The notes beneath the pieces were generated by a model that made no database searches, was not told the DNA's origin, and saw only the letters and a program-made list of their open reading frames with translations. This document shows positions 12,213 through 23,317 of a DNA stretch of 41,892 bases, in pieces. Position 1 is the first letter of the stretch, and every line of letters begins with the position of its first letter. This stretch comes from Candidatus Fermentithermobacillaceae bacterium. Its GTDB lineage: Bacteria > Bacillota > Sulfobacillia > Fermentithermobacillales > Fermentithermobacillaceae. A program made the translations under genes and the position numbers. The stretch covers positions 1 through 41,892 of the forward strand of contig DULO01000043.1 of the NCBI GenBank assembly GCA_012840345.1, read 5' to 3'.

Positions 12213-14294
12213 GTGGAGACGACGAGCGAAAACGAAGAAATGGTCAATAGACTGGGACGGGAGAAGTCGCCGTACCTGCTGCAGCACGCCAAGAACCCGG
12301 TGAACTGGTACCCTTGGGGCGAGGAAGCTTTCGAGAAAGCCAAGGCCGAGGATAAACCGCTGTTCATAAGCATCGGCTACAGCACTTGTCACTGGTGCCA
12401 CGTGATGGCGCGGGAGTCTTTCGAAGACCGCGAGGTGGCAGAGGAACTGAACAGGAACTTCGTCCCGGTGAAAGTTGACAGGGAAGAACGTCCCGACGTC
12501 GACCACGTGTACATGGAAGTCTGCCGGATGCTGACCGGAAGCGGCGGATGGCCGCTCACTATCATAGCCACTCCGGACAAAAAGCCTTTCTTCGCGGGCA
12601 CTTACTTTCCCAAGGAATCCAAGTTCGGGCTTCCCGGCTTGTTGAACATATTGCAGGTGGTCAGCGAAGGTTGGGCGACCGACAAAGACAGGTTGATCAG
12701 GCAGGCGGAACGCGTCTCTAATGCCCTGGCGGAGGAAAACAAGCGGGGATGGAGTGGGGCAACCGGTGGAGAGCGGGCCGGCGAAACCGCGGTCAAGGCA
12801 GCGGTTGATGGCAAGCTCGTGGAAATCCTGGATAGGGCGTTTTCGTCCTACTCCGGTGCTTTTGACGAGGAGTACGGCGGTTTCGGCACCGCCCCCAAGT
12901 TTCCGTCTCCCCACAATCTCATGTTCCTTCTGAGGTACTGGAAGAGGACAGGGCAGAGGCGGGCCCTGGACATGGCGGAGAAGACTATCCGAAGAGCCTA
13001 CGCCGGCGGCATATACGATCACGTGGGCTTCGGGTTTTTCAGGTATTCCACTGACTCCAGGTGGATGATCCCGCACTTCGAGAAAATGCTCTACGACAAC
13101 GCCCTGATGCTCATGGCCGTAACCGAGCTTTGGCTTTGCACCAAGAAAGACGCCTACAGGCAAATGGCAAGCGAAATCGCCTCCTTCATTTGGGAGGAGA
13201 TGACTTCCCCAGAAGGAGGGTTCTACGCCGCCATCGACGCCGAGTCCGAAGGCGAGGAAGGCAAGTACTATGTCTGGACTTATGAGGACCTGGAACAGGC
13301 ATTGGGCAAACAAGACGCCCCGTTTGCCGCCAAAAGGTACGGGATAAAAGAGCAGGGCCCGTTCAGGGGCTTTTCTATTCCGCACCTTCCTTCAGACAAC
13401 CTGATCGGCCCCAGAGACCCGTCGGCGGAACGGTTCCGGAAGGGCATGAAGGCGTTTAGAGCGTCCCGGGTCCGCCCGGCCACAGACGACAAGATACTGA
13501 CGTCCTGGAACTCCCTTATGATAGCGGCCTTTGCCAAGGCTTACGGTGCCTTCAAGGATAAAGAGTACTTGCGGTCCGCCGAGGAAGCTTACGGTTTCAT
13601 AACCCGGCACCTGCTGAAAGACGGCGTCCTCTACGCCAGGTATAGGGACGGGGAAGTGCTTCACAAAGGTTACCTGGATGATTACGCCTTTTTCGTATGG
13701 GCGCTCCTGGAATTCTACCAGGCGACGTTTGAGGAGCGGTACTTGTCCCTGGCAAAGACGTTGGCAGAGGACATGGTGGAAATCTTCTGGGACGAAGAGC
13801 GCGCGGGGTTCTTCCTAACGGGAAAGGATTCGGAAGAGTTGATAATCAGGCCCAAAGAAGCCTACGACGGGGCCGTGCCTTCAGGAAACTCTGTAGCGGT
13901 CATGGACCTTCTGCGCCTTTCCCATCTCCTAGGTCTCGAGCGGTTTGAGGAACTGGGAATGGCCGCGATCGCGGCGATGGAAGAGATGCTCACAGAGAGT
14001 CCCGCGGCGTTCGGTCTCATGCTTTCGGCCCTAAGCTACTCGGAAGGAGCCCGGGACATAACGGTCACGGGAAGGCACAAGGACCCGGCCGTTGAGCCCA
14101 TGCTCAACTACATCCGCAGCTTGTTCCTTCCGGAGTCCCAGGTCATCTTCGCTCAAGACCGGGCCAGGGTGCTGGGAGACGAACCTGAAGACCCGCCATC
14201 CACGCCTTCCATCGTGATTTGTCAGGGAAGGGTCTGCGGGCAGCCCATAACCAATTTGCAGCAGCTGCAAAGGGCTCTAATGACCGCGCGTTAG
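12213..14294 (+). CDS. YyaL-type thioredoxin domain protein (DUF255 / SSP411 family)
   Basis: A 693-residue protein of the family that includes B. subtilis YyaL and human SPATA20. The N-terminal thioredoxin-like domain holds [13 protein letters not shown] and the CxxC-like site STCHWCHVM (Cys59, Cys62), then [13 protein letters not shown]. The rest is an (alpha/alpha) barrel like N-acylglucosamine 2-epimerases and six-hairpin glycosidases (GGGF-type repeats such as [17 protein letters not shown] and [14 protein letters not shown]). The function of the family is not established. GTG 12213 is the first start; ATG 12240 ([14 protein letters not shown]), where family similarity begins, is an equally good choice since neither has a strong ribosome binding site. 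It converges on the polyprenyl synthase gene with only 32 nt between and no visible terminator. Confidence 0.9.
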
Positions 14295-16260: not shown

Positions 16261-17016
16261 ATGGACAACAAGACCATAGCGTTTTGCTTCCTTGTGGCTT
16301 TCGCCCTTTCGTCCCTATATGCCATGAGGAGAAATTCCACCGGCAGCGGCATCCCGATCAGGCGGGTGCCGGGACTGGACGCCATCGATGAAGCCATCGG
16401 ACGGGCGACCGAGATGGGAAGAACCTCTCTCTTCGTTATCCCGGCGGGAGCGTTCGACGCCCAAGCCTTCGCCGCTTTCGATATCCTTGGCTACGTGGCG
16501 AGGCAGACTGCCAAATACGACACCAAGCTCCTAGTAGTCAACGCGCTTCCCGAAGCCCACACCATCGCCACCGAGGTGGTACGTCAAGCGTATCTCGCGG
16601 AGGGCAAGGAGAAGTCTTTCAGCCAAGACTCAATGCGGTTTCTATCGGGGGGATTCACCGCGGGAGTTCTCGGCATCTACGAACGGGAGCCCATCGGCGC
16701 CAACTTCTTGTTTGGGTCGTTCTTCTTTGAAAGTCTGACTTTGGCCGAAGCCGGGCAGAAAACAGGAGCTATTCAGGTATCCGGCACCGCCAACACTCAC
16801 CAGCTTCCTTTTCTTGTGGCGGCCTGCGACTACACCCTGATCGGCGAAGAGATATACGCCGCGGGCACCTACCTGTCCAGAAACGGCGCCCAGATCGGCA
16901 GCCTCGTCGCCCAGGAGGTCGGCAAATACCTGAGCATAGCGGCGATGATTCTCGGAAGCTTGTATTTCACCTTTAGGTCGGTATTCCAAGCTTCCCAAAC
17001 GATAGGGGGGCGCTGA
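16261..17016 (+). CDS. DUF6754-like membrane protein (operon protein A)
   Basis: A 251-residue protein. ATG 16261 is chosen over an upstream in-frame start because GGAGGT lies 8 nt before it. The layout is an N-terminal helix (about 6-22), a soluble domain of about 195 residues and a C-terminal helix (about 218-238). The soluble part begins RRVPGLDAIDEAIGRATEMGR, split here as RRVPGLDAIDE then AIGRATEMGR, a stretch I associate with the uncharacterised DUF6754 family. It later contains QVSGTANTHQLPFLV and YLSRNGAQIGS. No catalytic motif is recognised. The next gene begins 1 nt after the stop. Together with the following three genes it probably forms one membrane complex. The family name is from memory; the function is unknown. 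Confidence 0.8.
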   Translation: MDNKTIAFCFLVAFALSSLYAMRRNSTGSGIPIRRVPGLDAIDEAIGRATEMGRTSLFVIPAGAFDAQAFAAFDILGYVARQTAKYDTKLLVVNALPEAHTIATEVVRQAYLAEGKEKSFSQDSMRFLSGGFTAGVLGIYEREPIGANFLFGSFFFESLTLAEAGQKTGAIQVSGTANTHQLPFLVAACDYTLIGEEIYAAGTYLSRNGAQIGSLVAQEVGKYLSIAAMILGSLYFTFRSVFQASQTIGGR

Positions 17017-17017
17017 C

Positions 17018-17644
17018 ATGACGCGGCGGACCGTACCCCTTATCATCGGTTTTCTTGCCGGGACCATCGTGCTGGGCAAGTACTTCCTTCCTCAAAACGC
17101 TTTCCTCGATTCACTGGGCACCGATGTGGTGAACTGGCGCACAATCGTCGCCGCCTTCGCCCTCGGCCTCGGCGCCGTGAACCTCCTGGGTACTCACACC
17201 ATGAGGATTGCCCGTAAAGAGAAGGGGTGGGACGCCAGCATCGTCCTCTTGGCGTCTCTGGTGACCTTCACGGCCATCGGCCTTTTCAAGGGGACCACAT
17301 CCCCCGTCTACCAGTGGGGCTTCAACTACCTCTACCAGCCGATATATTCAGGCATCTCGTCCCTCTTGGCGTTCATGATCACTTCCGCGTCCTACAGGTC
17401 TTTCCGGTTTAAGGACTGGCAATCCGGGGTGCTGATGCTGGGGGCCGTCATAGTGATGCTTGGCCAGGTTGGTATAGGAGAGTTGCTGTTCAGAGGCCTC
17501 CCCGCGGTTTCCTCCTGGATCATGGCGGTCCCCAACACCGCGGGCATGAGGGGCATAGCCATAGGGGGGGCGCTTGGAGCCATAGCCTTGAGCCTTAGGG
17601 TCATACTGGGGCTTGAACGCGGATACTTGGGAGGTGGCCAGTAA
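17018..17644 (+). CDS. Polytopic membrane protein of unknown function (operon protein B)
   Basis: A 208-residue protein with about six transmembrane segments (near residues 5-22, 42-60, 74-92, 107-126, 137-157 and 183-200). The loops are short and carry few charges, for example RKEKGWD and YRSFRFKDWQ on the presumed cytoplasmic side. No transporter signature is recognised. ATG 17018 follows the stop of protein A by 1 nt and a GGGGGG ribosome binding site lies within the end of that gene. Its stop codon overlaps the start of protein C (TAATG). The translational coupling implies a fixed stoichiometry with its neighbours. Confidence 0.8.
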   Translation: MTRRTVPLIIGFLAGTIVLGKYFLPQNAFLDSLGTDVVNWRTIVAAFALGLGAVNLLGTHTMRIARKEKGWDASIVLLASLVTFTAIGLFKGTTSPVYQWGFNYLYQPIYSGISSLLAFMITSASYRSFRFKDWQSGVLMLGAVIVMLGQVGIGELLFRGLPAVSSWIMAVPNTAGMRGIAIGGALGAIALSLRVILGLERGYLGGGQ

Positions 17645-18495
17645 TGTCTTCTCCTTGGTACGAGCGGCTTCAGAGCATTCCCAAACCGGCTATTTACGCC
17701 ACCCTGATATTGGTTTTTTTGGTCCCGCTAATACGTCCTATGGGCTTGCCTCTCCTCATGAGCGAGAATACCCGGAAGGCTTACGAATACATCGACGCGC
17801 TGCCTGAAGGCTCCATCGTATTCCATTCCATCGCGTTCAACCCCGCGGTGGACGCGGAAAACTGGCCGCAGATGCTCGCTTTGGTCCGTCACTACATGAA
17901 GAACGGGCTCAAGATCATCTTCTACCCGACAATGCAGGAAGGCGGGATGTACGCCGAAAGGATACGTTCGACTTACGCGGCAGAGTACGGCTACGAGTAC
18001 GGCGAGGACTACGTCATACTGCCCTTTAAGGCGGGCGGGGAGAGCGCCATAGCCGGGCTTAAGGATTTCTGGTCCTTTATGCCAAGCGACGTGGACGGAA
18101 CCCCGCTCAAGGATCTCCCGCTGTTCCAGGGTTTTACCGATATGCGGGACGTCGACGTCATCGTGCCTTGTACGGGCAGCTCTGACGGTCTCTTCTACGT
18201 GAGCCACCTTAACGCGGCCTACGGCACGCCCATCATCATGGCGGGCACCGCTCCCGTGCTGCCGTTTATCGGCCCGTTCCTCGCGTCGGGACAAGTGAAA
18301 GGCGCGATTATCGGGCTTTCAGGCGCGGCCGAGTATGAGATTCTGGCGGGTGTTCCGGGTCAGGCGACAGGCGCTATGGACGCCCAGTCCATGGGCCACC
18401 TGCTTATCGTGGGCCTTGTCCTAATTGGGAACCTCGGCTTCCTTTACGGGAAGAGGGTCAACGGAAAGAACGGTCAGAACGGGAGGCGGTCTTGA
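17644..18495 (+). CDS. Helix - soluble domain - helix protein of unknown function (operon protein C)
   Basis: A 283-residue protein with the same overall plan as protein A: an N-terminal helix (about 16-36), a soluble domain of about 210 residues and a C-terminal helix (about 250-268). It ends in a strongly basic tail KRVNGKNGQNGRRS. Basic residues also precede helix 1, so by the positive-inside rule both ends should be cytoplasmic and the domain extracytoplasmic. The domain alternates strands and helices (GSIVFHSIAF, GLKIIFYPT, VDVIVPCTGSSDG, GTPIIMAGTAPV, VKGAIIGLSG), suggesting a Rossmann-like fold, but no nucleotide or metal motif is seen. GGAGGTGG precedes the ATG. The stop overlaps the next start. 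Confidence 0.8.
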   Translation: MSSPWYERLQSIPKPAIYATLILVFLVPLIRPMGLPLLMSENTRKAYEYIDALPEGSIVFHSIAFNPAVDAENWPQMLALVRHYMKNGLKIIFYPTMQEGGMYAERIRSTYAAEYGYEYGEDYVILPFKAGGESAIAGLKDFWSFMPSDVDGTPLKDLPLFQGFTDMRDVDVIVPCTGSSDGLFYVSHLNAAYGTPIIMAGTAPVLPFIGPFLASGQVKGAIIGLSGAAEYEILAGVPGQATGAMDAQSMGHLLIVGLVLIGNLGFLYGKRVNGKNGQNGRRS

Positions 18496-19127
18496 TGGCA
18501 GATACGGTCGGAACCTACTTGTCGGGCCTGCTCATCGTGGCATGCTTCAGCTACTTGTTCAAGGAAAACCGGGCATTCACCTACGCCGAACACCTTTACG
18601 TGGGGTTCGCGGCAGCCCAAGCTATCGTGTTGGGCTGGTCCAACATCAAGGAGATGGGCTTAGATCCTCTCCGTCAGGGGAAGTTCATCTTGGTCATACC
18701 CCTTGTCCTTGGCGTCCTGCTCTATGCCAGGTACTACAAGCCCCTGTCTCACCTCGCGAGGTTTCCCCTGGCCTTCATGATGGGCGCCGCGGCGGGCGTG
18801 ACCATAACCGGGGTTATAGATGCCCAGTTGGTGGCTCAAGTGAAAGCTACCATGCTGCCCATGACCAACCTGAACAACGTGGTCATGGTGCTGGGTACGG
18901 CTTCGACCCTCGCGTTCTTCCTCTTCATTCCCATTGGAAAGAAGGCGGAAGGGGTGAAGGCGGCGAACGGGTTCGGCGCGGGCAATTTGGTGCGGAACCT
19001 GGGGCGGGCCACCATAATGCTGGCCTTCGGTTCGTCGTACGGGTACACGGTCATGGCGAGGTTGTCCTACCTAGTCGCCAGGCTGCAGTTCCTGTTCGGA
19101 CGCATCATTCCGCTGATTCCCGACTAA
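18495..19127 (+). CDS. Polytopic membrane protein of unknown function (operon protein D)
   Basis: A 210-residue protein with about six hydrophobic segments (near 5-22, 36-52, 65-80, 88-110, 129-147 and 168-188). ATG 18495 shares its A with the TGA of protein C, and GGGAGG lies 8 nt upstream, so this start is preferred over the TTG one codon earlier. The size and helix number match protein B, giving the operon an A-B / C-D pattern (soluble-domain protein, then polytopic protein). I see no obvious sequence identity between B and D by eye. The M14 carboxypeptidase gene starts 27 nt later and is probably in the same transcript. Confidence 0.8.
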   Translation: MADTVGTYLSGLLIVACFSYLFKENRAFTYAEHLYVGFAAAQAIVLGWSNIKEMGLDPLRQGKFILVIPLVLGVLLYARYYKPLSHLARFPLAFMMGAAAGVTITGVIDAQLVAQVKATMLPMTNLNNVVMVLGTASTLAFFLFIPIGKKAEGVKAANGFGAGNLVRNLGRATIMLAFGSSYGYTVMARLSYLVARLQFLFGRIIPLIPD

Positions 19128-19154
19128 AGACCAAGAACATCTGGAGGGAGTTTA

Positions 19155-20846
19155 ATGAAACTGGAGGATTTCACCTGGGACCGTTACCTGAAGTACGACG
19201 AACTCACAGCCGCTCTTAGGTGGCTCGCCGAGACCTACCCCGACCTTTGCGAGATGTACTCCATCGGGAAGACCTGGCAGGGCCGGGACATTTGGTGTTT
19301 GGAAGTGACCAATAAGAAGATAGGGAAACCGTCGGAGAAGCCCGGGTTGTACGTGGACGGCAACACTCACGCGGGCGAGGTCACCGGAAGCATGATCTGC
19401 CTGTACAGCGCGTGGAGCTTGCTTTCAAATTACGCTACGGACCCCAAGACCAGGCTTCTGGTGGACACCAGGACTTTCTACATCGTCCCCAGGCTCTCGG
19501 TGGACGGGGCCGAACTGTACCTCACGGAACCGTATATTCCCAGGTCCAGCATACGGCCCTGGCCGTACGAGGAAGAGCAGGACGGTTTGAACCCTTACGA
19601 TATTGACGGCGACGGGATCATCGCCCAGATGCGCGTGGAAGATGAGAACGGGGCGTGGCGAGTGTCAGAGAAAGATCCCCGGGTGATGGTTAGGCGCAAG
19701 CCCAACGAGTTCGGCGGGAAGTACTACACCGTCTATCAGGAGGGCTACATCAAGAACTGGAACGGGGTGGAAGTAAAGCCCGCGCCGAGCCGCTGGGGCT
19801 TGGACGTAAACAGGAATTACGCGGCCAACTGGCAGCAAGACTACATGCAGCCCGGCGCCGGACCCTATCCGTTCTCGGAGCCGGAATCGAGGTCTGTCGC
19901 CGAGTTTTTCGAATCCCACCCCAATATAGCGCTGGCTCAGTCCTATCACACCTTTAGCGGAGTGGTGCTTAGGCCGGGCGCCGCCAAGGCCGACAAAGAC
20001 CTAAGCCCCAAGGACCTAAAAGCGCTCAAGGAGATAGGCGCGATCGGGCTCGAGACCACGGGGTATCCTTGCGTCGGGGTCTATGAGGACTTCGCGCTTT
20101 CCAAGGATATCGTAGGGAAGCGTCCCCTTTGGGGAGTAGCCCTCGAGTGGATGTTCGAGCACGCCGGCGTTATCGCGTACTCCACCGAGGTCTGGGATAT
20201 GCCCAACCGTGCCATGGGAAGGAAAGACAGCTACAAGACTCTCATGGACTGGACCGAGGAAGAAAACATCCAGATGCAAAAGTGGAACGACGAGAACCTA
20301 AACGGCGAAGGTTTCATCAACTGGCGTCCTTTCAACCATCCCCAGCTAGGGCCGGTGGAGATAGGCGGATGGAAGCACAAGTTCGTCATACAGAACCCGC
20401 CGCCCAAGTTCCTAAGGCAAGAGTGCGAGAAAAACTCGAATCTCTTCATTGAGATGGCGCTGACCACTCCTTTGGTAAGGATAACCCGGATCGAGGTCGA
20501 GGAAGTGGCGAAAGGCGTCTACAATGTGAAGGTGGCCGTCAGGAACATGGGGTACCTTCCGACCAACGTCACGGATCAGGCCAAGAAGAACAAGAAGGCA
20601 AAGCCCGTGAAGGCTACCATAGAGTTGCCTGAGGGCGCCGCCGTGGTGGGCGGCACGAAAGAAATCGAAATCGGGCACATGGAAGGCCGTCTTTCCGTGG
20701 GGAGGCCTTTCGGCGGCGGTCCGCAGACCGAGCATCTGTGCCAGTGGGTTGTGTCCGCGCCGTCACCGGTGACCGTTTCCGTGAAAGCCGGAAACGAGAG
20801 GGGAGGCTTTGACACCAAGGAAGTGAGGCTCATCCCCAAGGCCTAA
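19155..20846 (+). CDS. M14 family zinc carboxypeptidase with C-terminal beta domain
   Basis: A 563-residue peptidase. Zinc ligands are HAGE (His72, Glu75) and His265 in AQSYHTFSG. The substrate-carboxylate site is DVNRNY (217-222), and the general base is Glu345 in STEVWDMP. An inserted loop with Asp149, Asp151 and Asp153 (DIDGDGI) looks like a Ca2+-binding site. From about residue 440 the chain changes to a beta-rich domain (RITRIEVEEV, YNVKVAVRNMGYLPTNV) like CARDB/adhesion modules. There is no signal peptide, so the enzyme appears cytoplasmic unless exported by other means. GGAGGG precedes the ATG, and the gene closely follows the membrane operon. It probably trims peptides; exact specificity is unknown. 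Confidence 0.92.
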   Translation: MKLEDFTWDRYLKYDELTAALRWLAETYPDLCEMYSIGKTWQGRDIWCLEVTNKKIGKPSEKPGLYVDGNTHAGEVTGSMICLYSAWSLLSNYATDPKTRLLVDTRTFYIVPRLSVDGAELYLTEPYIPRSSIRPWPYEEEQDGLNPYDIDGDGIIAQMRVEDENGAWRVSEKDPRVMVRRKPNEFGGKYYTVYQEGYIKNWNGVEVKPAPSRWGLDVNRNYAANWQQDYMQPGAGPYPFSEPESRSVAEFFESHPNIALAQSYHTFSGVVLRPGAAKADKDLSPKDLKALKEIGAIGLETTGYPCVGVYEDFALSKDIVGKRPLWGVALEWMFEHAGVIAYSTEVWDMPNRAMGRKDSYKTLMDWTEEENIQMQKWNDENLNGEGFINWRPFNHPQLGPVEIGGWKHKFVIQNPPPKFLRQECEKNSNLFIEMALTTPLVRITRIEVEEVAKGVYNVKVAVRNMGYLPTNVTDQAKKNKKAKPVKATIELPEGAAVVGGTKEIEIGHMEGRLSVGRPFGGGPQTEHLCQWVVSAPSPVTVSVKAGNERGGFDTKEVRLIPKA

Positions 20847-20957: not shown

Positions 20958-22130
20958 TTAGTTATGAGCCCGGGCGAAAACGCTCTGCCCTTCAATGTAA
21001 ACCTCCAAGACCTTCGAACGGATCCTGAAGGGGTGCCCGCTCCACACCACAAAGTCAGCGTCCTTGCCCGCGTCCAAGCTTCCGACCCTGTCGTCTACGC
21101 CCAGGGTCTCCGCTGGGGTCAAGGTCACGGCCCTGAGCGCGTCCTCTTCTTTCATGCCGTTGGCCCATGCCAGGGCGGCGGCGGTGGAAAGGAATTGGAC
21201 CGGCAGGAACGGATGGTCGCTCATGATGCTGACCCGGCATCCCGCTTCCGCGAGTATCCCCGCGGTCTTAAGGTTTATGTTAAGCGTCTCGATCTTGGTC
21301 CTACTGGAAAGGCTCGGGCCTATGTTGACCCTTGCTTTCCTCTTGCCGAGGAACTCGGCGATCGCGGCGCCGTCTGTGCAGTGTTCTATGGAGTAGTCAA
21401 GGTCGAACTCTTCCGCGATCCTGACCGCTGTGACTATGTCATCGGCCCGATGGGCGTGAATACGCAAGGGAATCTCACGTCGCAGGACCTTCAGTAGGTT
21501 TTCCATACCCAAGTCCCTGTCGGGCATCTTTGACGGGTCTTCCTGGCCGCGCTCGAGCTTCTTGGCGTACTCCCGGGCTTTGTACAAAGCCCCCCGCAAG
21601 AGCGCGGCGTTGCCCATGCGCGTAACGGGGGCCTGCTTGCGGTTGCCGTAGTAGTTCTTGGGATTCTCGCCCAAGGCCGCTTTTAGGCCGCTGGGGTTCT
21701 TGATTATCATGTCGTCCACGACGGTGCCTCTGGTCTTCGCCACAACCATTTCGCCGCCAATGATGTTGCCTGAGCCAGGGGTTATCTGGACCGTCGTGAC
21801 CCCCCCTGACCTGGCGTCCTCAAAGGCGGTGTGCCCGGGCCAAATGGAATCCAGGGCGCGTACTTCAGGCGTTATCGGGTTGGAGCCTTCGTTGCCGTCG
21901 GACTGTGGCTGTCCGTACCACTCGGGCCACATGCCGATGTGGGTATGCTCATCAACAAACCCAGGAAGTATGGACTTGCCCTTAAGGTCTATAATGGTGC
22001 AGCCTTCCGGCAGGGGGATGTCTTTACCGACGGCCGCGATTTTCTTGCCGTCTACTAGGAGCACGCCTCCATGGATCGGAGGCTTTGACACCGGGTAAAT
22101 GTCGGCGTTGATGTAGGCGGTCTTGCTCAC
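20958..22130 (-). CDS. Amidohydrolase, imidazolonepropionase-like (second of a tandem pair)
   Basis: A 390-residue member of the amidohydrolase superfamily (HutI/COG1228 type). The metal-binding HxH is EHTHIG (His62, His64). Later conserved elements are GGVTTVQITPGSGNIIGGE, LRIHAHRADD, SIEHCTDG and SDHPFLP, with the closing ADFVVWSGHPF characteristic of the family. The GTG start overlaps the stop of the upstream paralogue (GTGA), so it is translationally coupled. The enzymes hydrolyse cyclic amides or related C-N bonds. The substrate is unknown; the genes are not in a histidine-degradation operon, so imidazolonepropionase is not assumed. It converges on the M14 peptidase. Confidence 0.9.
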   Translation of the reverse strand: MSKTAYINADIYPVSKPPIHGGVLLVDGKKIAAVGKDIPLPEGCTIIDLKGKSILPGFVDEHTHIGMWPEWYGQPQSDGNEGSNPITPEVRALDSIWPGHTAFEDARSGGVTTVQITPGSGNIIGGEMVVAKTRGTVVDDMIIKNPSGLKAALGENPKNYYGNRKQAPVTRMGNAALLRGALYKAREYAKKLERGQEDPSKMPDRDLGMENLLKVLRREIPLRIHAHRADDIVTAVRIAEEFDLDYSIEHCTDGAAIAEFLGKRKARVNIGPSLSSRTKIETLNINLKTAGILAEAGCRVSIMSDHPFLPVQFLSTAAALAWANGMKEEDALRAVTLTPAETLGVDDRVGSLDAGKDADFVVWSGHPFRIRSKVLEVYIEGQSVFARAHN

Positions 22131-23317
22131 TTAAGGCCACCTGCCTTCTCTTGGTTCTCGTACACGATTTGGCCGTCAATGAAAGTGAGTTCGGCTTTGG
22201 CGTCGTACTCCAGGGGGTCCTTTGACCAAACTACCAGGTCAGCGTCTTTCCCCGGTTCAAGAGACCCGACCCTGTCCGCTACCCCCGCTATTTCGGCGGC
22301 GTGACGCGTTATGGCAAGCAAAGCCACGGTTTCATCCATACCTTCCCTTACGGCCAGCCCTGCAGATATCCTGAGGTACTGGATGGGGAGGACCGGATGG
22401 TCAGTGATGATGGCGAGCTTAACGCCTGCTTTGGACAGGGCTACCGGCGTGCTGAAGCCGATGTCCTTTACTTCGAGCTTGCTCTTGCTTGTGATGGACG
22501 GGCCAACGGTGACGGGAAACCCGCTTTCCTTCACGCGCTCCGCGATCTTGCCCCCTTCTGTGCAGTGCTCCAGCGAGATGTTGATGTCAAATTCCTTCGC
22601 AATCCTGATCGCCGTCATGATGTCGTCGGTGCGGTGGCAGTGGACCCGCAAGGGGATTTGTTTCTTAAGTACCGGGATCAAAGCCTCGTGTTTTAGGTTT
22701 AGAGCCGGTGCCTTTTCCGGGTCTTTCGCTTCTTCCTTCTTGCGGAGGTAGTCTTTGGCCGCCGCAAGCGCTTTTCGCATGGTTGCCGCGTTTCCCATTC
22801 TCGTTGTGGGCATTTTCCGGTCCGCCCCGTAGACTCGCTTCGGGTTTTCTCCAAGCGCCGCCTTCATGCCGCTGGGACGCAGCACCACCATGTCGTCGAC
22901 CACGGTTCCCCATGTCTTCATGACCAGGGTCTCGCCGCCGATGATGTTGGCGCTGCCCGGGTCGACTTGAACGCAGGTGACACCCGCGGCGACGGCGTCG
23001 GAAAGAGCGACGTCTTTCGGGTAAATGCCGTCGATCGCCCGTACGTCCGCCGTAATCGGGTTCGACATCTCGTTTCCATCGTTACCCGCCCAACCCGTGC
23101 CGTCTTCGGCCAGGCCTATGTGGCAATGGGCGTCGATGAACCCGGGAGTCACGACTTTGCCTGAACCGTCGATGACATTGGCCCCCGGAGGGACGGGAAT
23201 GCCCTGCCCTACGGCCGCGATCTTGCCGTCTTGGATGACGATAGTGGCGTCGTCAAGGAAGGGTTCGGCGTCTTTGGCGGTGAAGACCTTGGCGTGGACT
23301 ATCGCTGTCAAGTTCAA
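22127..23317 (-). CDS. Amidohydrolase, imidazolonepropionase-like (first of a tandem pair)
   Basis: A 396-residue paralogue of the next gene. It shows IDAHCHIG (His64, His66), ANIIGGETLVMKTWGT, LRVHCHRTDD, SLEHCTEG and ITDHPVLP, ending ADLVVWSKDPLEY. The start is TTG 23317 with AAGGAGG 10 nt upstream. Long identical stretches such as KAALGENPK and TRMGNAA are shared with the downstream copy, so the pair arose by duplication and may form a hetero-oligomer. Both lack signal peptides. Substrates may be cyclic or N-acylated amino acid derivatives released from peptides; this is inference from context. Confidence 0.9.
   Translation of the reverse strand: MNLTAIVHAKVFTAKDAEPFLDDATIVIQDGKIAAVGQGIPVPPGANVIDGSGKVVTPGFIDAHCHIGLAEDGTGWAGNDGNEMSNPITADVRAIDGIYPKDVALSDAVAAGVTCVQVDPGSANIIGGETLVMKTWGTVVDDMVVLRPSGMKAALGENPKRVYGADRKMPTTRMGNAATMRKALAAAKDYLRKKEEAKDPEKAPALNLKHEALIPVLKKQIPLRVHCHRTDDIMTAIRIAKEFDINISLEHCTEGGKIAERVKESGFPVTVGPSITSKSKLEVKDIGFSTPVALSKAGVKLAIITDHPVLPIQYLRISAGLAVREGMDETVALLAITRHAAEIAGVADRVGSLEPGKDADLVVWSKDPLEYDAKAELTFIDGQIVYENQEKAGGLK

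Follow-up and report, generated by a model that had tools for sequence, protein, structure and literature searches.

A recurrent four-gene membrane cassette and its conserved partners, a GlmL-like ATPase and a barrel-sandwich protein: a possible new type of ATP-driven membrane machine

The question raised by this locus is what four closely coupled genes, one of them for a protein with the domain DUF6754, do at the bacterial membrane. The genes are located in contig DULO01000043.1 of a Candidatus Fermentithermobacillaceae bacterium (assembly GCA_012840345.1), of which positions 1 to 41,892, that is, 41,892 nucleotides (nt), were analyzed and are called the window here. The cassette, its copy number, its near-obligate partners and a confident joint fold of the four proteins were obtained by computation, and two conserved partners, an ATPase and a barrel-sandwich protein, hint at a novel type of membrane machine driven by ATP. 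The four genes are as follows (aa, amino acids; TM, transmembrane):

16261..17016, + strand, protein A gene, ATG to TGA, 251 aa, DUF6754
17018..17644, + strand, protein B gene, ATG to TAA, 208 aa, six TM helices
17644..18495, + strand, protein C gene, ATG to TGA, 283 aa
18495..19127, + strand, protein D gene, ATG to TAA, 210 aa, six TM helices

The A and B genes were separated by a 1-nt gap, and the B/C (TAATG) and C/D (TGATG) junctions overlapped by 1 nt each. Position 19154 was the final base ahead of an M14 carboxypeptidase gene, which started at 19155, 27 nt past D. These coordinates and junctions were in exact agreement with the four coupled open reading frames described in a first-pass annotation of the window. 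The same annotation had likened A to DUF6754 and left the other proteins unrecognized, and the profile searches gave the same picture. Protein A matched PF20539 (DUF6754) in Pfam with an E-value of 6e-75 and 252 bits against a cut-off of 27 (residues 3-240, profile positions 9-250 of 257), and nothing above the cut-off was obtained for B, C, and D in Pfam or NCBIfam. Had the proteins matched an established family of transporters or secretion systems, this would have spoken against the idea of a complex of its own kind, but no such match was obtained.

The window's genome (2.36 Mb in 136 contigs) contained ten A, ten B, and eleven C genes, which were co-located in a constant order. An eleventh cassette was truncated by the end of contig C38, leaving a partial C gene and D (L154:4730-5904). 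When GTDB genomes were scanned with the ten A proteins, at least 571 relatives were confirmed, and 80 loci were kept. Among these, the Bacillota were represented by Fermentithermobacillaceae, Symbiobacterium, and others. The other bacteria were Armatimonadetes, WOR-3/Stahlbacteria, Zixibacteria, Poribacteria, Planctomycetota, Cloacimonadota, Latescibacterota, Coatesbacteria, Riflebacteria, and Acidobacteriota, and the archaea were represented by one locus, from Methanomethylicota. Using profile models of A to D, 95 complete A-B-C-D runs were counted in the examined loci, with gaps whose medians were 20, 14, and 9 nt; no run with another gene order was found there. The arrangement was therefore above chance, given the number of complete runs, the fixed order and the short median gaps. 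Tandem double and triple cassettes also occurred. In a draw of 199 genomes from the window's phylum, DUF6754 was present in 16. The number of A matches per genome ranged from 1 to 27, with a median of 3, and 24 of the 34 cassette-bearing genomes had at least two; two relatives were especially rich, with 27 and 14 matches. That the A-B-C-D cassette and its partners are real is, in our judgment, nearly certain.

At L108:13016-17410, a normal cassette was followed by a second A gene, two unmatched genes, and genes that resembled C and D very weakly (19 and 25 bits); this second set is a strongly diverged version of the system. At L012:1985-5785, and in the related loci L051 and L059, a ribonucleotide reductase gene was located upstream of the cassette, and intein/LAGLIDADG domains were found in three neighboring proteins of the examined set.

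The layout of the proteins was examined in predicted structures. The AlphaFold model of the window's A had a mean predicted local distance difference test (pLDDT) of 93.4 and a predicted template modeling score (pTM) of 0.87, and consisted of TM1 (residues 4-26), a Rossmann-like domain (39-206), and a long C-terminal helix containing TM2 (209-249). Protein C comprised TM1, a Rossmann-like domain with the element order of A, and TM2. Protein B had six TM helices, of which TM2 and TM6 were long, and D showed the same helix pattern. For a joint fold, in place of a multimer prediction, L056 was used, in which the four genes naturally share one reading frame; it was read through the stop codons (as serine) to give 999 residues, and the alignment held 67 rows, each a natural in-frame AB, BC, CD, ABC or ABCD stretch. 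The best model had a mean pLDDT of 85.2 and a pTM of 0.85, with values below 50 only in the linkers. In this model, A and C showed the same predicted series of elements, TM - helix - six beta/alpha units - TM. Such a pTM for 999 residues speaks for one defined assembly, though the linkers tether the chains. On the whole, we regard a single complex of the four proteins as quite probable. A fixed four-protein membrane assembly of the A-B / C-D plan had been proposed in the first-pass annotation, with one design for A and C and another for B and D. The 95 fixed-order runs and the confident joint fold supported the assembly, and the order of elements (helix, alpha/beta domain, helix; six-helix) supported the two designs.

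The shared folds of A with C and of B with D were judged from the order of elements in the models. Sequence homology within either pair was rejected as a finding, since the hhalign probability without structure was 3-5%, which was not significant. With predicted secondary structure, the probability was 23% for A-C and 8% for B-D, in register and above the unrelated pairs A-D and B-C. Common ancestry of A with C and of B with D is plausible; the profile comparison is no proof of homology.

The topology was predicted from positive-inside charge counts in the aligned families. The counts placed the A domain in the cytoplasm and the C domain outside it, with B N-in/C-in and D N-out/C-out. In other phyla, relatives of A carried a signal sequence and an Fn3-like domain ahead of TM1 (weak fn3 matches, below the cut-off). 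The A domain is probably cytoplasmic, as indicated by the charge counts together with these N-terminal extensions and a further one with a propeller, described below. The C domain is probably extracytoplasmic; the orientations of B, C, and D were derived from the charge rule. Of the two soluble domains noted at first, both were present, and the description is to be corrected in that one probably faces the cytoplasm and the other the outside. In one DUF6754 protein (L034:954-3632), a pyrroloquinoline quinone (PQQ) beta-propeller of ~600 residues preceded TM1, which implies that A is able to bear large binding domains at its extracytoplasmic end. Eight residues of A were invariant in 77 sequences (G47, R48, E51, G152, E163, G169, Q181, and D190). 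Among the four proteins, conservation was highest in A and lowest in C, with a mean random-pair identity of 0.47 versus 0.33, as would be expected if A contacts a shared partner and C contacts differing solutes.

The neighbors of the 80 loci were clustered, which gave three recurrent families from many phyla and a fourth, less regular small protein. The first family was of the GlmL/MutL type (PF13941; the copy in Symbiobacterium matched with E 4e-119), the second, of ~375 aa, weakly resembled barrel-sandwich proteins (RnfC_N, NqrA_N), and the third was a small protein of 100-150 aa. In genome G129, these three families and the cassette formed a single operon in the order small protein - A - B - C - D - GlmL-like - barrel-sandwich (L162, 4780-10993). 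No partner gene was present in the window itself. Elsewhere in its genome, an operon on contig C101 (L151) contained both small proteins, the GlmL-like protein and the barrel-sandwich protein, and two more GlmL-like/barrel-sandwich pairs were located on contig C134. The first-pass annotation had seen no ATP motif in A to D; this is to be corrected to the extent that the complex hardly appears to lack an energy source, since two near-obligate partners, an ATPase with intact ASKHA nucleotide motifs and a barrel-sandwich protein, are encoded elsewhere in the genome.

All 34 cassette-bearing genomes, which came from many phyla, encoded the barrel-sandwich protein (46-82% identity), and 33 of them encoded the long GlmL-like protein. 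These genomes had been picked for having the cassette, so the test is one-sided, and the other side is given by the background of the 199-genome draw. There, the barrel-sandwich protein occurred in 14 of the 16 DUF6754 genomes versus 1 of the 183 others (both in 14, DUF6754 only in 2, barrel-sandwich only in 1, neither in 182; Fisher P 1.6e-18, a value that overstates independence because the genomes are related). Leaving out the window's genome gave P 2e-17. One of the DUF6754-only genomes was an assembly 78% complete. The number of partners was smaller than that of cassettes, with one partner copy to 4-6 cassettes in some genomes and 3 to 10-11 in the window's genome.

The GlmL-like copies of the window's genome scored 124-520 bits against the PF13941 cut-off of 27, and the L151 protein kept the ASKHA motifs DxGSTTTK, DIGGAT, and GSGG. 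The partner is named GlmL-like and not GlmL because none of the curated NCBIfam models of GlmL, Or-4, and the GlmL family was matched above its cut-off (TIGR01319, 154.8 against 204 bits; NF040745, 216.5 against 475; NF040744, 193.3 against 600). One GlmL-like copy on contig C134 was a diverged paralogue (L152:14823-16667), in which the second phosphate and adenosine motifs were lost, adjoining a diverged barrel-sandwich gene and ABC/FtsX-like genes. This paralogue is possibly an inactive regulator or a separate system. On the same contig, an ornithine racemase gene beside a true Or-4 gene (L153:4158-6565) marked an ornithine fermentation cluster.

The explanation tentatively favored here, at slightly less than an even chance, is that A-B-C-D is the interchangeable unit, specific for a given substrate, of a larger ATP-dependent membrane system; it would be driven by the shared GlmL-like ATPase and would probably import solutes that bear amide groups. 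For ATP-driven uptake as such, our confidence likewise falls just short of the halfway mark. A at the cytoplasmic face, B and D as six-helix proteins of opposite orientation, and C at the outer face would form one membrane unit. C, the least conserved, would recognize a small solute outside, and A, the most conserved, would dock on a cytoplasmic module of the GlmL-like ASKHA ATPase, the barrel-sandwich protein, and one or two small proteins. Such modules, few in number, would each serve many membrane units in one cell. The likely task would be the uptake of N-acyl amino acids, short peptides, and cyclic amides, which would then be opened by adjacent amide hydrolases. The topology, the docking of A, ATP-driven transport, its direction, and the substrates are what we infer. 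More doubtful is the wider proposal of a new class of primary active transporter, in which an antiparallel A-B / C-D unit, whose halves share folds and face opposite ways, would be driven by the shared ASKHA GlmL-like ATPase through the barrel-sandwich protein as adaptor, the copies of the unit being specialized by amide compound.

The hints on substrates came from the genes downstream of the cassette. In the window, these were the following:

19155..20846, + strand, M14 zinc carboxypeptidase gene, 563 aa, Pfam PF00246, E 2e-44
20958-22130 and 22127-23317, - strand, two convergent amidohydrolase genes, Pfam Amidohydro_1/Amidohydro_3, 49% identical

The M14 gene had two paralogues on other contigs of the genome, and no M14 gene was found beside any other examined cassette. 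The M14 carboxypeptidase was therefore ruled out as a general part of the system, as only the window's copy has one; it is possibly a substrate-side enzyme of this copy. The link between the complex and a zinc carboxypeptidase, drawn in the first-pass annotation, was not conserved, and the broader trend was one of amide hydrolases after D. By BLAST, relatives of the window's amidohydrolases were found near cassettes in L015 and L085. In copy-rich genomes, the same-strand gene right after D encoded the M14 enzyme (window), an M20 enzyme (L011), a creatininase (L171), or an amidohydrolase (L179, L186, L188, L190, and L191), and a gene for an M19 dipeptidase or an alanine racemase followed in L188 and L186.

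On the other side of the cassette, two genes upstream, a gene for a thioredoxin-domain (DUF255/YyaL-like) protein was located at 12213-14294 of the window, and a polyprenyl synthetase gene lay between it and the cassette on the opposite strand. Neither gene recurred next to other cassettes. In a promoter scan of the region, the number of sites was no higher than in shuffles. A to D and their partners matched no defense model in PADLOC, and readings of the locus as a defense, plasmid, or RNA element were set aside, there being no PADLOC match, plasmid record or Rfam match.

In three copy-rich genomes, 17 cases could be tested, and in 8 of them an amide hydrolase gene came immediately after D, compared with at most 6 of 96 distant genes (P ~1e-4). 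Ca. Fermentithermobacillus carboniphilus, whose partner proteins were 82-85% identical and which is by this measure a near relative, is predicted to ferment peptides and amino acids (PMC10215811). Several points weigh against the uptake of amide compounds by this unit. The trend comes from few genomes, the category was picked after it had been noticed, and the control counts are upper bounds. Across all Bacillota loci, the signal was weak, with amidohydrolases at 9 of 96 near positions versus at most 2 of 96 far ones (P 0.03). Lineages with one cassette, such as Poribacteria and some Armatimonadota, had no substrate-type neighbors, which fits a housekeeping role equally. A to D matched no classified transporter family in the Pfam, NCBIfam, PDB sequence, and Foldseek searches, and neither the joint model nor A by itself matched a PDB fold at E 0.001 or better in Foldseek. 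To our knowledge, no ASKHA ATPase powers a transporter. Furthermore, such organisms also have ordinary peptide ABC transporters (PMC10215811).

Three other explanations were considered. The cassette may encode a housekeeping envelope machine that handles, for example, lipids, lipoproteins or wall precursors with the same ATPase, the many Bacillota copies being a later expansion. This we consider rather unlikely. It would account for the single-copy, vertically stable cassettes of distant phyla and the archaeon, beside general genes like those of the aroB/aroK type or tsaE/tsaB/tsaD, and for the Fn3-like or PQQ-propeller domains by which A is extended on the extracytoplasmic side in several phyla; however, 10-27 diverged copies per genome, with a mean identity of 33-47% and differing catabolic neighbors, would be unusual for such a machine. 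A receptor system, in which C would sense an outside solute and signal through B and D to A, with the GlmL-like ATPase and the barrel-sandwich protein as a cytoplasmic hub, appears improbable. The variable outer domain, the conserved inner domain and the many units per hub would suit it, but at least 12 membrane helices in each unit would be a large number for a receptor, and genes for kinases, cyclases, regulators or chemotaxis did not recur beside the cassettes. Least probable, in our estimate, is a membrane enzyme or an ion or redox pump with A or C as the catalytic part and the GlmL-like protein as activator or reactivator; GlmL proteins are thought to act in this way on B12 mutases. No cofactor, metal-cluster or flavin motif was seen in A to D, B and D did not match the Rnf/Nqr membrane families, and no mutase or redox gene recurred nearby, although the strongly conserved polar residues of A (R48, E51, E163, Q181, D190, and E197) and the weak similarity of the barrel-sandwich protein to RnfC_N/NqrA_N would be in agreement with this explanation.

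If the ATPase powers the A-B-C-D unit, the unit would be a membrane machine driven by an ATPase of the actin/Hsp70 fold and not by an ABC, P-type or rotary one. For thermophiles that ferment peptides and amino acids, this could account for the entry of many different amide compounds into the cell. It would also provide a second, tractable context for the wider GlmL/MutL family, whose role is still unsettled. What were four genes without annotation and a DUF become a system of seven or so components with a testable logic, in many little-studied phyla and one archaeon. The single DUF6754 domain and the broad GlmL/MutL family were already known. For the complex of four proteins, its expansion and its partnership, no description was found in the family libraries or open-access papers searched, and the open-access literature searched contained no mention of DUF6754 and no GlmL-like protein with membrane partners.

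Compared with known systems, the components resembled several of them in part. PF20539 is returned by Pfam as an uncharacterized single domain, and B, C, D, and the ATPase module are absent from its description. The PDB folds nearest to the A domain were of the SIS / RpiR / eIF2B type (MurR, RpiR, GmhA, and eIF2B; Foldseek E 0.004-0.03); unlike these, A has a membrane anchor at both ends, with no sequence kinship and no E-value of 0.001 or lower. By sequence, the PDB held no relative of A, C, the GlmL-like protein or the barrel-sandwich protein. The second partner was like NqrA/RnfC in its barrel-sandwich stretches, a weak similarity at or below the threshold in most members, whereas the rest of the protein differed and Rnf/Nqr membrane subunits, flavin and Fe-S parts were absent. 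The GlmL/MutL family (PF13941) is an accessory protein of methylaspartate mutase and of the ornithine pathway. The partner ATPase scored well above the threshold of this family and kept its ASKHA motifs, but it was longer (~600-630 aa versus ~450), was not located beside a B12 mutase, and was separate from the true Or-4 (L153). In group II ECF transporters, a shared EcfAA'T module serves many S-components, which are often scattered over the genome (PMC10368641). The copy numbers of the present system would fit a similar arrangement, in which many diverged membrane units may share one cytoplasmic ATPase module, by analogy and not by kinship. In contrast to the ECF transporters, A to D gave no EcfT or S-component match, there was no ABC ATPase, and the ATPase was of the PF13941 ASKHA type. 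Furthermore, the membrane unit consists of four proteins and is predicted to carry soluble domains on both faces of the membrane.

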